This document shows, one piece after another, positions 16,885 to 21,547 of a DNA stretch of 32,168 nt (position 1 is the first letter of the stretch; every line of letters begins with the position of its first letter). The notes beneath the pieces were generated by a model that did no database searches, was not told the DNA's origin, and saw only the letters and a list, made by a program, of their open reading frames with translations. Source of the stretch: Deltaproteobacteria bacterium (lineage in GTDB: Bacteria; Myxococcota_A; Polyangia; JAAYKL01). A program made the translations under genes and the position numbers. The stretch lies in NCBI GenBank assembly GCA_030621515.1, contig JAUXHN010000027.1, forward strand, positions 1 to 32,168, in the 5' to 3' direction.

Positions 16885-19113
16885 GTGCACAGTCGCGATC
16901 ACCGCCCCGAGATCTTCGGTCTGTCCCTCGGCGTGTACGCCACGACGGGCCAGGTGGTGCTCCTGCGAGAGGCGCTGACCGTCAGCGGGGGAAACGAGCT
17001 GTCTCTCGGCCTGTCTCTCGCCGTGTGGCTCCTCGCGGTCGGGATCGGCGCATGGATCGGAAATCGCCTCGGGAATCCAGGCTCTTTGCTCGTGGGGGCT
17101 TCCGTCGCCGCGGGTCCGGTCCTGGTGGGTTCTCTTGCCTTCTTCAGGCTTCACAGGGGTATCCTCGGACTCTTGCCCGGGGGAGATCCCTCCCTTGGCG
17201 AGATGGCCATTATTCACGGTGGGGGGTTGTTTCTGGGAGCGGCAACCGTGGGTTTCCTGTTCACCACGGCGTCGAGGACATTCCCCCGAGATTCGAAGAG
17301 TCCCGCGAGCAGGCTCTACATTGCGGAGGCGACAGGAGCGCTCGTCGCGGGGCTTGCCTTCACCTTTGTTGTGGCCGGCAACGTGGAGCATCTTACCGCC
17401 CTGGGGATAACGGCGGGCGGCCTGGCCGTGGGCACAACCTTCATGGCGGGCGGGAAGGCAAGCAGGCTTGTTGCGGTCGCATCCGCTGTCGTATTGCTCG
17501 CAGTTTCGCTCACGGGCACGTTGGCAGCCCTGGATCGCCATCTGGGAAAAATCGCTTTCGAGCAGCTTGCGGCGGGAGGGGAGATGGTCGCCGCGGCGGA
17601 CAGCAACTACGGTCGCCTGGTAATCGGCCTGCGGGAGGATCAATATCAGCTCTTTTCGGACGGTCGAATCTCCCACGTTTTCCCCGATCCCTTCGACCGG
17701 CCCGTGCCGGTCCACATCGCCCTGACCCAGCATCCTCGCCCGCGCAGGATCCTCCTTCTGGGAGGCGGAGCCCCGGATCGGCTCGAGGCTGCCCTGGCCC
17801 ATGAGCCCAAGCAAGTGGTCCTGACCTACCTCGACGAGAAGGCCCACACCCTGAGCGAGCGATTCTGGTCGGATTCGACTCGGCGTGCGGTCCGCGATCC
17901 CAGGGTTCGGGTGGTCCTGGACGATGGTCGACAGTACGTGTTCAACACACGAGAGAAGTTCGACAGCGTTATCGTGTCGAGCCCGCCGCCCCGGAGCGGC
18001 CGGGAGAACCGCTACCACACGCGGCAGTTTTTCGAGGCGGTTTCGCGGATCCTGGCAAGGGGCGGAACCATGTCTGTGATCGCGCCGGGCGGAGCGAACG
18101 TCCTGGCCGATGAGGCGGCTCGCGCTGCGGCCGTCACCCGAAGCACGGTTCGCGCGGTATTTCCCCACGTGCTGGTCGTTCCCGGGATCGAGCTGTCCAT
18201 CCACGGGACCTCGATGGACGGCGTGCTCAGCGACGATCCCGAAGTCCTGGCGCGGCGTTTCTCGAGCCGTGTGCGTGAAGGCGGCTCTTTCTTTGCCGGT
18301 CGTTTCGAGAGCATCCTCGAACCGTCCCGCGTGGCCGCAGTTTCCAGGCAGCTGGATCATTGCCCCGCCCGGGTGAACGAGGATCTGGAACCCGGCGGCT
18401 ACCTGGCAAATATTCAGCTCTGGGAGAGGGAGGTCTCGACCGGCGGTCAGACCTCCGCGTGGACATGGACGGGGCTTGCGCAGCGAACGGCCTGGATCTG
18501 GCTCGTCGTGCCCCTGCTCATCTGGGCCGTCTGGAGAGTGGTTGCGGGCAAGCGAAGATCCGCCGGGCAGGGGGACACGATCTTTTCACTGGCCACCACC
18601 GGCGCCGTGGGGATGGGTGTCGAGGTGATGGTGTTGTACGTGTTCCAGTCCGCCTCCGGGGTTCTGTACTCCGGTATCGCGGCGATCATCGCGCTGTTCA
18701 TGGCCGGGCTGGCTGTGGGAGCTCTTGTGGGCAAGCGTTTTCTCGGTTCGCGCGGTCGTTTCGCGGGGATGATCTGTGACGTGCTGGCGCTCGTCTTCCT
18801 GCTGGCCACCGGGCCGTTTCTCGTGGCTTTTCACGACTATTGGCTACCCGTGGCCGCGTGGTCCTGCGCGGCGGGGCTGGTAACCGGCGTCGCGTTCCCG
18901 GTTTTTCTCAGGGCAGCGGCCAGGGCCCATGGAGATGACGAGCGTCCGGCGGCCGGAACCATGGAGAGCGCAGATCACATCGGCGCCGCATTCGGGGCGC
19001 TCGTCACGGGTATTGTGTGGCTTCCCGTGTTCGGGCTGGTCGCCACCAGCCTAATGTTCGCCGCCCTGAAGGCCGCCTCCCTGATCGGTCAGGTTGTACA
19101 AAGGTTTAGATGA
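16885..19113 (+). CDS. Membrane-embedded spermidine-synthase-fold protein
   Basis: A 742-residue protein: about six N-terminal membrane segments (residues 5-225), a soluble SpeE-like Rossmann domain (about 235-530) and about six C-terminal membrane segments (545-735). The soluble part has 'RRILLLGGGAPDRLEAAL' (nucleotide loop), 'VVLDDGRQYV', 'EKFDSVIVSSPPP', 'YHTRQFFEAVSRILARGG' and 'VNEDLEPGGY', matching membrane-bound spermidine-synthase-like proteins. True aminopropyltransferases have an Asp-rich 'D-x-x-D-P' catalytic loop where this one has 'SSPPP', so polyamine synthesis is doubtful. A GTG start at 16885 follows a GGGTGAGG stretch. It diverges from the sensor pair over a 92-bp gap. Family clear, substrate unknown. 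Confidence 0.82.
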   Translation: MHSRDHRPEIFGLSLGVYATTGQVVLLREALTVSGGNELSLGLSLAVWLLAVGIGAWIGNRLGNPGSLLVGASVAAGPVLVGSLAFFRLHRGILGLLPGGDPSLGEMAIIHGGGLFLGAATVGFLFTTASRTFPRDSKSPASRLYIAEATGALVAGLAFTFVVAGNVEHLTALGITAGGLAVGTTFMAGGKASRLVAVASAVVLLAVSLTGTLAALDRHLGKIAFEQLAAGGEMVAAADSNYGRLVIGLREDQYQLFSDGRISHVFPDPFDRPVPVHIALTQHPRPRRILLLGGGAPDRLEAALAHEPKQVVLTYLDEKAHTLSERFWSDSTRRAVRDPRVRVVLDDGRQYVFNTREKFDSVIVSSPPPRSGRENRYHTRQFFEAVSRILARGGTMSVIAPGGANVLADEAARAAAVTRSTVRAVFPHVLVVPGIELSIHGTSMDGVLSDDPEVLARRFSSRVREGGSFFAGRFESILEPSRVAAVSRQLDHCPARVNEDLEPGGYLANIQLWEREVSTGGQTSAWTWTGLAQRTAWIWLVVPLLIWAVWRVVAGKRRSAGQGDTIFSLATTGAVGMGVEVMVLYVFQSASGVLYSGIAAIIALFMAGLAVGALVGKRFLGSRGRFAGMICDVLALVFLLATGPFLVAFHDYWLPVAAWSCAAGLVTGVAFPVFLRAAARAHGDDERPAAGTMESADHIGAAFGALVTGIVWLPVFGLVATSLMFAALKAASLIGQVVQRFR

Positions 19114-19154: not shown

Positions 19155-21437
19155 TTACAGAATGATAATCGTTGCCATATGGATCTCGAAGCCGGCAAGA
19201 CATGGGAACACGAGCCCTTCTAGAGCAGACTCTATGCATTCGGCCACTTCAAAGCACCACTCCTCGTCGCACTGCGCCGAGATGCCCGCCACGGTTCCGT
19301 CATCGTTGATTATGATGGAGTAGTATTCGATGAATTGGTGAAGGTTCTCATCGTCGCAGTTTTCAAATACCATTTGATCTACTAAATCTATTTCATTTTG
19401 CAGGTCGCCTTCTATTTCCACACATGTATTGACATTACAGGGATATTCTCCATCCGATAGGGCATCTACCACGTCCTGGCTCATCTGGGTGGCGAGTTCG
19501 CTCTGTGGAAACGCGGCCAGCATGTCGGAGTCAGCATAGATTTCTGCGGAGGGAACGCCAAATTGATTGAAACAGACTTCACCGTTGAAGCAGGGCACGG
19601 CCTCGTTGACCGTGTCCTTGATTTCTGCCTGTTCGGCGTAGAACTCCGTGGAGTTACATTCATCGTTCGAGTCTGAATCAGTGTCCGAATCGGTGTCCGA
19701 ATTGGTGTCCGTGTCGCTGTCGGTTGCTCCAGCGTCGCCGCCGAGGGGATCCACGTGTCGACATCCCGGCACAGAGGTGAGGAGACACAGGGAGAAAAGC
19801 GAGGCTGCCGCAGTGGTGAAGACACTCGATCCACACAAGGGCACATCGAGTAGCTTTGACAATGAGTGCTCGATACTTGTGAGTTCCCTTTCGATGAACC
19901 TGGTGCGCTGGATGTATTGGTCCAGGACGGGTTGCTCATCACCCCGAACGCTGCCCTTGCGGGCCATGGCGAGAGCCTGGCGGTAGGCCTCCACATATAG
20001 AGAATTGATAGTATTGCGCAACCTCGAGATACGGGTTTCAAAACGCCCGCAGTCCACATCAGGGTGGAGTTTTCGTGCGAGGGAGATATTCCACGCTGCG
20101 TCGTGAGCTCGCTGGGCGATGGAAAAAACACCAAACGCTTGTGTACGCAGTGCGGCAAAGATCTCGGCAAAACGCCTGACAACCGGATCGTCGATTTCGT
20201 AGTCATACCGCAGGGGGTTGCCGTGGAGGCGCCCCTCCTTTGCAATCGAGTCAAAAAGCCTGGTGCCCGCGTACACAAACATCTGAGCCGCTTCGACCAT
20301 GCCGCAGGGGATCTTCTCCATGGTGGTAATGCTCGTTTCGATGGACTTGGCGCTGGAGTAGGGGTGAACGAGCATGACGTTTGAGATGGTGGCGATGCCC
20401 AGGGCGTTGAGCTTGCGGATCGCCGCCGCCTCCCTGTCTCCAAAGACGGGTCGCCCGAATTTCTTGCCGTCCTGTGCCACACCGAGATCCACGCCCGCGT
20501 ACATCCGCACTAGCCCCATACCGGCGAGCTGGTCAGCAATGGATTCAGTGATGTGGTTTGTACGGAGTTGCCCGCCGAGCCCGAAAGAACCTACCTTTCT
20601 CTTTTTCAGACCGCGCTTCCAGCGATCGAGATAACCGAGGGCATCGGCCTCGCCGAAGGGAAGGAAGTGTTCGTCGGTGAAGCCGAAGTAGCGCACGTCC
20701 CGCTCGTGCCATAGATAGGCCATTTCATCGCAAAGATCGTCGAGATCCCTGCGGCGCACTCCTCCCACTCCACAGCGGTTCATTTCCTCTGTGGTCGCAC
20801 CCTGTCTTCGAGCCTCGTCGCGTTCGAGGTTTTGGAGGGCGGCCGGACCGCAATAGGCGCAATTGCCCTTGCACCCTCGGGCACACAGCATGAGGGCTAC
20901 CTTGTGGCCGAGCCTGTCGCAGAGCTCATCCCGGTGGGGCCAGATTTTACTGGTAGTATTGTCGAGCACCCGGGCACACTCTCCGTCTCCCTCTCTTGTA
21001 GATAGACCGGCCACGCCGCAGATTGAGCGACTCGAGGCTATTCGAGTGGCCAGATCGACCACCGGCGCTTCTCCGGCAAACCGCACGACGCTGTCCAGCC
21101 ACCCGTACCTCTCCAGCAACCACTCGCGGTTCAGGGTTGCGAATTGGCCGCCGCAAGTGATGTAGCCGTCGTATCCTCGCTTTTTGAGTAACTCTCCCAG
21201 GGCGAGCGAGAAGAACGCAGAGTTGGTCTCTGGAATCGAAAGACCCACGAGCCCAGGCCGGCTCGTCATAATGGTATTAGCTGCCAGGTGAACGTCACGA
21301 GCGTGGTTCAACCTGAGCATCTCCACGTCGAATCCGGCACTCTCGAGGGCGGCGCGCAGATATCCCATTGACAGATTTTCGCACCAGGCCGGACGCCTTC
21401 CGACCAGAATCACTTTAAAAATTTTGAGTGAGTGCAT
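19155..21437 (-). CDS. B12-type radical SAM enzyme fused to a lipoprotein-like and TonB-C-like tail
   Basis: Numbered from the ATG at 21437 (760 aa), which has AGGA 4 nt upstream; an ATG at 21464 is the alternative. Residues ~3-130 form a B12-binding-like Rossmann domain, without the canonical DxHxxG. The radical SAM cluster motif is Cys189-x3-Cys193-x2-Cys196 ('CKGNCAYC'), followed by a TIM-barrel ('YFGFTDEHFLPFGEADALGY') to ~430 and a helical segment to ~530. Then comes an uncharged hydrophobic helix ending in 'LLTSVPGC' (Cys559), the sequence 'RHVDPLGGDAGA', a Thr/Asp/Ser linker (572-591) and a Cys-rich acidic domain. Its end ('NDDGTVAGISAQC...CIESALEGLVFPC') resembles the TonB-C/AgmX-PglI fold. 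No Met lies near the helix, so a separate lipoprotein is unlikely unless a GTG is used. Substrate unknown. Confidence 0.8.
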   Translation of the reverse strand: MHSLKIFKVILVGRRPAWCENLSMGYLRAALESAGFDVEMLRLNHARDVHLAANTIMTSRPGLVGLSIPETNSAFFSLALGELLKKRGYDGYITCGGQFATLNREWLLERYGWLDSVVRFAGEAPVVDLATRIASSRSICGVAGLSTREGDGECARVLDNTTSKIWPHRDELCDRLGHKVALMLCARGCKGNCAYCGPAALQNLERDEARRQGATTEEMNRCGVGGVRRRDLDDLCDEMAYLWHERDVRYFGFTDEHFLPFGEADALGYLDRWKRGLKKRKVGSFGLGGQLRTNHITESIADQLAGMGLVRMYAGVDLGVAQDGKKFGRPVFGDREAAAIRKLNALGIATISNVMLVHPYSSAKSIETSITTMEKIPCGMVEAAQMFVYAGTRLFDSIAKEGRLHGNPLRYDYEIDDPVVRRFAEIFAALRTQAFGVFSIAQRAHDAAWNISLARKLHPDVDCGRFETRISRLRNTINSLYVEAYRQALAMARKGSVRGDEQPVLDQYIQRTRFIERELTSIEHSLSKLLDVPLCGSSVFTTAAASLFSLCLLTSVPGCRHVDPLGGDAGATDSDTDTNSDTDSDTDSDSNDECNSTEFYAEQAEIKDTVNEAVPCFNGEVCFNQFGVPSAEIYADSDMLAAFPQSELATQMSQDVVDALSDGEYPCNVNTCVEIEGDLQNEIDLVDQMVFENCDDENLHQFIEYYSIIINDDGTVAGISAQCDEEWCFEVAECIESALEGLVFPCLAGFEIHMATIIIL
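19664..19728 (-). repeat. Low-complexity Thr/Asp/Ser-coding repeat
   Basis: Degenerate 6-bp units coding alternating Thr-Asp and Ser-Asp (minus strand GAYWCN-type codons) between the hydrophobic helix and the Cys-rich domain of the radical SAM fusion. Such linkers are typical of secreted proteins in Myxococcota-like genomes. Confidence 0.7.
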
Positions 21438-21547
21438 TCGATCCTGCCTGTCTGCCTCAATCATTCATCTTCTCATAATTCCAGATGAATTAATAATGAG
21501 AACCGGGCTCGTTCTTAGTGACCTTCGGAAGCCGCATCCCAAAGTCT

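Follow-up and report, generated by a model that had tools for sequence, protein, structure and literature searches.

Borosins, N-methyltransferase/precursor systems known both as fusions (types I-III) and in split form (type IV and others) (PMC8429565, PMC11395268), provide a precedent for a single family of modifying enzymes whose substrate is either part of the same polypeptide or the product of an adjacent gene. Among cobalamin-dependent radical SAM enzymes, ApyD and other peptide methyltransferases C-methylate peptides (PMC10635010); ApyD belongs to a RiPP gene cluster with a separate precursor and no export-signal fusion, and HpnR, BchE and other small-molecule B12-binding radical SAM enzymes have no exported tail. 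The nearest pair in NCBIfam is TIGR04133 (rSAM_w_lipo) with TIGR04134 (lipo_with_rSAM, 'radical SAM-associated putative lipoprotein'), in which a radical SAM enzyme is genetically paired with a lipoprotein that is its possible target; there the enzyme is SPASM-type without a B12 domain, and the two genes are separate.

The window analysed here, a 32,168-nucleotide stretch of a Myxococcota draft genome (contig JAUXHN010000027.1), carries a gene that shares with ApyD, HpnR and BchE a B12-binding and a radical SAM domain and with TIGR04133/TIGR04134 the association of a radical SAM enzyme with a lipoprotein (Table 1). If the fused part is the enzyme's substrate, the gene, which has split relatives, would also match the borosins in uniting enzyme and substrate in one polypeptide. 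It differs from the borosins in enzyme fold and chemistry, in the lipoprotein signal between its parts, and in that the substrate role, proven for borosins, is here a putative one.

Table 1. Position of the fused gene and its parts within the window, with the basis of each assignment.
Feature	Residues (aa)	Positions (nt)	Strand	Basis
Whole fused gene		19155..21464	(-)	one uninterrupted 769-aa frame; full-length homologues
B12-binding domain	20-138	21051..21407	(-)	Pfam PF02310, 9.8e-10, above cut-off
Radical SAM domain	195-376	20337..20882	(-)	Pfam PF04055, 2.6e-6
CKGNCAYC (CxxxCxxC)	198-205	20850-20873	(-)	inside radical SAM domain
Helical region C-terminal of enzyme domain	~427-540	19845..20186	(-)	AlphaFold2 model
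Hydrophobic, lipoprotein-signal-like segment	549-567	19764..19820	(-)	aligned in all fused members; length and charge comparison
Lipobox Cys568	568	19761..19763	(-)	Cys in 52/52 fused members aligned
Acidic Asp/Ser/Thr linker	569-606	19647..19760	(-)	like those in the genome's free lipoproteins; disordered in AlphaFold2 model
Cys-rich tail domain, remotely AgmX/TonB-C-like	607-769	19158..19646	(-)	24-row alignment; model

In the enzyme part a B12-binding domain is followed by a radical SAM domain with the CxxxCxxC motif, all three Cys of which are invariant in 67 of 67 aligned homologues; the Radical_SAM Pfam score of 28.1 bits lies just under the cut-off of 29.5. Fold matches of this part are the cobalamin radical SAM enzymes OxsB, TsrM, TokK, MgmA and CysS, and an AlphaFold2 model of the complete protein (mean pLDDT 83, pTM 0.81; output without an error estimate between domains) has both enzyme and tail folded. 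By domains and fold the protein is a predicted cobalamin-dependent radical SAM enzyme, with cobalamin binding and SAM cleavage as its predicted properties. ApyD is among its best NCBIfam neighbours, as are HpnR (4.5e-10) and BchE (5e-7), and every NCBIfam radical SAM score is far below cut-off (34.4 against 750 bits for ApyD, 38.7 against 650 for HpnR, 28.9 against 481 for BchE), which places the enzyme outside every family named there; no NCBIfam model names the family. TIGR04133 and TIGR04134 were matched neither by the window protein nor by its tail or the partners tested. The open part of the literature, outside which most subscription papers lie, yielded no description of the family. Within the reach of these searches, a B12-type enzyme together with a fusion through an internal lipoprotein signal appears to be new.

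The junction lies at a segment, FTTAAASLFSLCLLTSVPGC, that terminates at Cys568 (VPGC) and is followed by RHVDPLGGDAG, the Thr/Asp/Ser linker and then the tail. The first-pass annotation had read a CxxxCxxC radical SAM/B12 enzyme running in the same frame through this hydrophobic stretch into a Cys-rich tail, and that architecture is confirmed as real, in a single open frame of 769 aa; the extent it gave, 19155-21437, lies within this frame, which reaches 21464, nt 21437 being the second in-frame ATG (M10), an alternative start. In the 67-row alignment every one of the 52 fused members has a Cys in the column of Cys568 (54 by raw count, two of them chance matches in tailless proteins), and none of 583 enzyme-core Cys passes the same lipobox and hydrophobicity criteria. 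Ahead of the lipobox Cys the charge-free stretch averages 16 residues, and the net charge goes from +2.9 ahead of the segment to -4.6 past the Cys, a pattern like that of an export signal of N-in/C-out orientation. As in bacterial lipoproteins, a hydrophobic stretch that resembles a signal runs up to a lipobox Cys. The basic region ahead of the signal is weak in the window protein, however, where the signal is internal, behind about 550 residues, and V-P-G-C is atypical; in one fused member (L103) an ALA-Q site resembling that of signal peptidase I replaces the lipobox.

Homologues with the same fusion are numerous. The architecture recurs in a paralogue in the same genome (L002; 31% identity, 706-aa frame) and in a homologue in another (G003; 50% identity over aa 16-769), and a third family copy in the window's genome (L003) is tailless. 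Members occur in 29 of 96 related genomes, two of which hold ten and eleven copies, most of them with a tail of their own; among the matches listed for a phylum-wide sample (48, all with E < 1e-147, at a threshold of 1e-70), members occur in 26 of 284 genomes. The unique members whose core is complete number 101: full tails are present in 74, 22 are tailless, and the remaining five have a short tail, are cut by a contig end or are ambiguous. Homologues that always lack the tail, one of the findings that would have refuted the first-pass reading, are not what is seen. A scan of genome contigs with one protein as query gave a single match, at a contig end of a Myxococcota MAG (L093), and the plasmids searched held distant generic radical SAM proteins only; these distribution data come almost wholly from one phylum, taken to be Myxococcota on the strength of L093, the one named match, with many draft genomes. 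Tails differ completely between enzyme clades, the lipobox Cys being kept nonetheless. On the enzyme-core tree the fused or split state changes about five times, and tail type tracks enzyme clade (16 changes against 63 when shuffled). In several members (L022/L077 in G005:C192, L040 in G042:C50, L020 in G010:C333) the frame is broken in two, either by decay of the copy or by an error in the draft.

Split versions with a separate lipoprotein-like partner, for which the first-pass annotation had proposed a search, exist as well. In 17 of the 22 tailless members a partner gene lies directly before or after the enzyme, 16 of these with an apparent export signal; some partners were recognised by inspection and others with a pattern, which makes the count of 17 an approximation. 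No partner was recognised beside the enzyme in the other five (L079, L082, L084, L139, L140), and the one partner that lacks an evident signal peptide (L083:6738-7925) contains a VQEPAHY-like motif many times over. The terminal Ig/PKD-like domain of fused type-B tails recurs in separate adjacent partners (L135, 2.5e-9; L087, 2.8e-7; L132, 1.7e-7). This is a Rosetta-stone pattern, which ties the enzyme to its exported partner. A conserved RxRTxxHLxxL segment precedes the signal of the partner in one split clade, found in 7 of 8 partners against 1 of about 610 other ORFs with a pattern made from the same sequences in which it was counted. Since this segment would stay cytosolic, it may be the site at which the enzyme recognises its partner, as with a RiPP leader. 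Near another tailless enzyme of the family, at a distance of about 3 kb, lies a small exported-looking protein of NDLRYFCQGNCGSIG repeats (L078:376-789).

Many tails and partners outside the window's clade contain an acidic-proline motif of the form [CVA]-[DE]-[PMC]-x-P (for example VVDPLPPDAG, MCEMAPPP, IVCDPLPPP and VVDCVPYP, with VDPLPPD and CEMAPPP), tandemly repeated in one clade, type B. With a looser pattern the 20 type-B tails hold 86 occurrences, where shuffles give 5.2, and of the 17 split partners 15 are matched, where shuffles give 2.5. The excess is weaker in types C and D and, with the looser pattern, absent in type E, though its tails are rich in DPLPPP. Because the pattern was defined after inspecting the sequences in which it was counted, and because enzyme cores also exceed shuffles (38 against 18.6), we place weight on the type-B and partner figures only. 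In the window's clade (A) the motif is not enriched (5 of 27 against 2.7 by chance), and no candidate target motif was found there. We considered VDPLGGDAG of the window protein as a variant of VDPLPPD and rejected this, because clade A is unenriched and ordinary lipoproteins of the same genome, which read CHHTGSLNGDAGPDTDSD, share such a linker; the stretch is probably no more than the linker usual for lipoproteins in this genome.

The tail domain of the window's clade (type A; pLDDT 84 in the model) is rich in Cys, with 11 in the window protein from Cys568 onward and four invariant across the 24-row alignment in addition to that of the lipobox. The ends of family tails resemble AgmX/PglI (NF033768) and TonB/TolA C-terminal domains, and the TonB-C/AgmX-like end of the first-pass annotation is upheld for the family: NF033768 weakly matches 8 of 24 type-A tails (best E 0.005), and a tail from another clade (L127) scores 54.2 bits, above the curated cut-off of 40. 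The likeness is remote in clade A, and the window tail itself gives no match to NF033768 at all. TolA/TonB domains top its PDB fold list without significance, and a tandem duplication within the tail is at most hinted at (hhalign probability 1.5%). The type-A domain is almost exclusively fused to a family enzyme. The same genome encodes a free lipoprotein that combines an Lcl_C domain with an intact type-A tail domain (L155:4191-5363, G000:C74), and no family enzyme lies in the 9.5 kb read around it. Across 12 type-A loci only the gene itself is conserved; three of them have a DUF4215-containing protein nearby, which looks incidental. In the window, the product of the convergent neighbour (16885-19113, plus strand) has hydrophobic regions on either side of a spermidine-synthase-like domain (Pfam 3.3e-16).

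Taken together, the pattern of fusion and pairing suggests enzymes that alter their attached partner prior to its export and release. As an explanation we propose a Myxococcota family of cobalamin radical SAM enzymes, each with one dedicated exported partner that is encoded adjacently or is fused to the enzyme by way of its lipoprotein signal; partner or tail would be modified by the enzyme before export and cleavage. We put this at about an even chance. C-methylation is a common reaction of B12 radical SAM enzymes, and the modification, made in the reducing cytoplasm, might be of this kind. Sec would then export the tail, Lgt would lipidate Cys568, and LspA would cut just before this residue, so that the enzyme stays inside while the modified lipoprotein ends up outside the cytoplasm. 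To the narrower statement, that the enzyme is self-modifying, with a lipoprotein substrate attached to it behind an internal signal, modified in the cytosol and released through export processing, we give a little less than an even chance. That type-A genes have no conserved neighbour able to supply another substrate speaks for the explanation proposed above. Counted against that explanation are the free tail-domain lipoprotein without an enzyme, the weak basic region of the window signal, the missing motif in clade A, and the limit on co-translational export that follows if a folded, cofactor-bearing enzyme must act before its tail leaves. If true, the system would be a radical SAM counterpart to the borosin fusions, would connect the export route of lipoproteins with the chemistry of radical SAM enzymes, and would point to modified lipoproteins of the Myxococcota envelope as a class without a name so far.

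The first-pass annotation had offered two readings, a fused substrate released later and a membrane-tethered enzyme with an outside domain. The second is the main rival: the enzyme would stay in the cytoplasm, anchored in the inner membrane by the hydrophobic segment, with the tail as a periplasmic sensor, scaffold or partner-binding domain and a lipid or small molecule as the true substrate. Several of the best NCBIfam neighbours do act on such compounds (HpnR, ladderane-type TIGR04072, BchE), type-A genes lack conserved neighbours, and tail ends resemble envelope-spanning AgmX/TonB-type domains. However, split enzymes are untethered, with a separate and mostly signal-bearing partner; the segment is short and ends in a conserved lipobox Cys that a permanent anchor would not need; and both the repeated linker motifs and the pre-signal segments are left unexplained. 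We regard the tether as unlikely. Because fused homologues and split versions are both found, the enzyme-partner fusion system is supported and the fused substrate, released later, is the better supported of the two readings. The first-pass interpretation of a new enzyme-substrate fusion system is thereby partly supported, as to the fusion of enzyme and partner; modification of the tail stays putative, and the window's clade yielded no candidate target motif.

More doubtful still is a tail that never leaves the cytoplasm and serves the enzyme as accessory or substrate-binding domain, the signal-like segment being only a relic of gene fusion. A large folded enzyme ahead of a signal is indeed unusual for export, and the AlphaFold2 model folds both parts, but against this stand the lipobox Cys, kept in 52 of 52 fused members whose tails differ wholly between clades, the charge asymmetry, which is kept too, and the export-style acidic linkers and invariant Cys of the tails. 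An internal translation start within the enzyme gene, yielding both fused and free lipoprotein products, seems very improbable: some type-A relatives have an ATG just ahead of the hydrophobic stretch (PMRAAAA), but this ATG is unconserved and missing in the window gene, in 12 of 54 rows the stretch from 14 to 40 codons ahead of the Cys contains no start codon in frame, and ribosome-site-like sequence occurs at background frequency (14.8% against 12.4%). As a general source of tails it is therefore not supported, with neither a conserved internal start codon nor a ribosome site. An assembly, frameshift or missed-stop artefact at 19760-19850 that joined two genes, a worry in a fragmented draft of 346 contigs, is rejected with near certainty, the identical junction recurring in the paralogue and in dozens of homologues from independent genomes.

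The window's genome also holds what is likely a separate radical SAM/lipoprotein pair: a SPASM-type radical SAM protein (L167:868-2550, G000:C81) scores near TIGR04133 (377 bits, cut-off 425), and directly ahead of its gene lies a small lipoprotein with a weak TIGR04134 match (3.7e-4).
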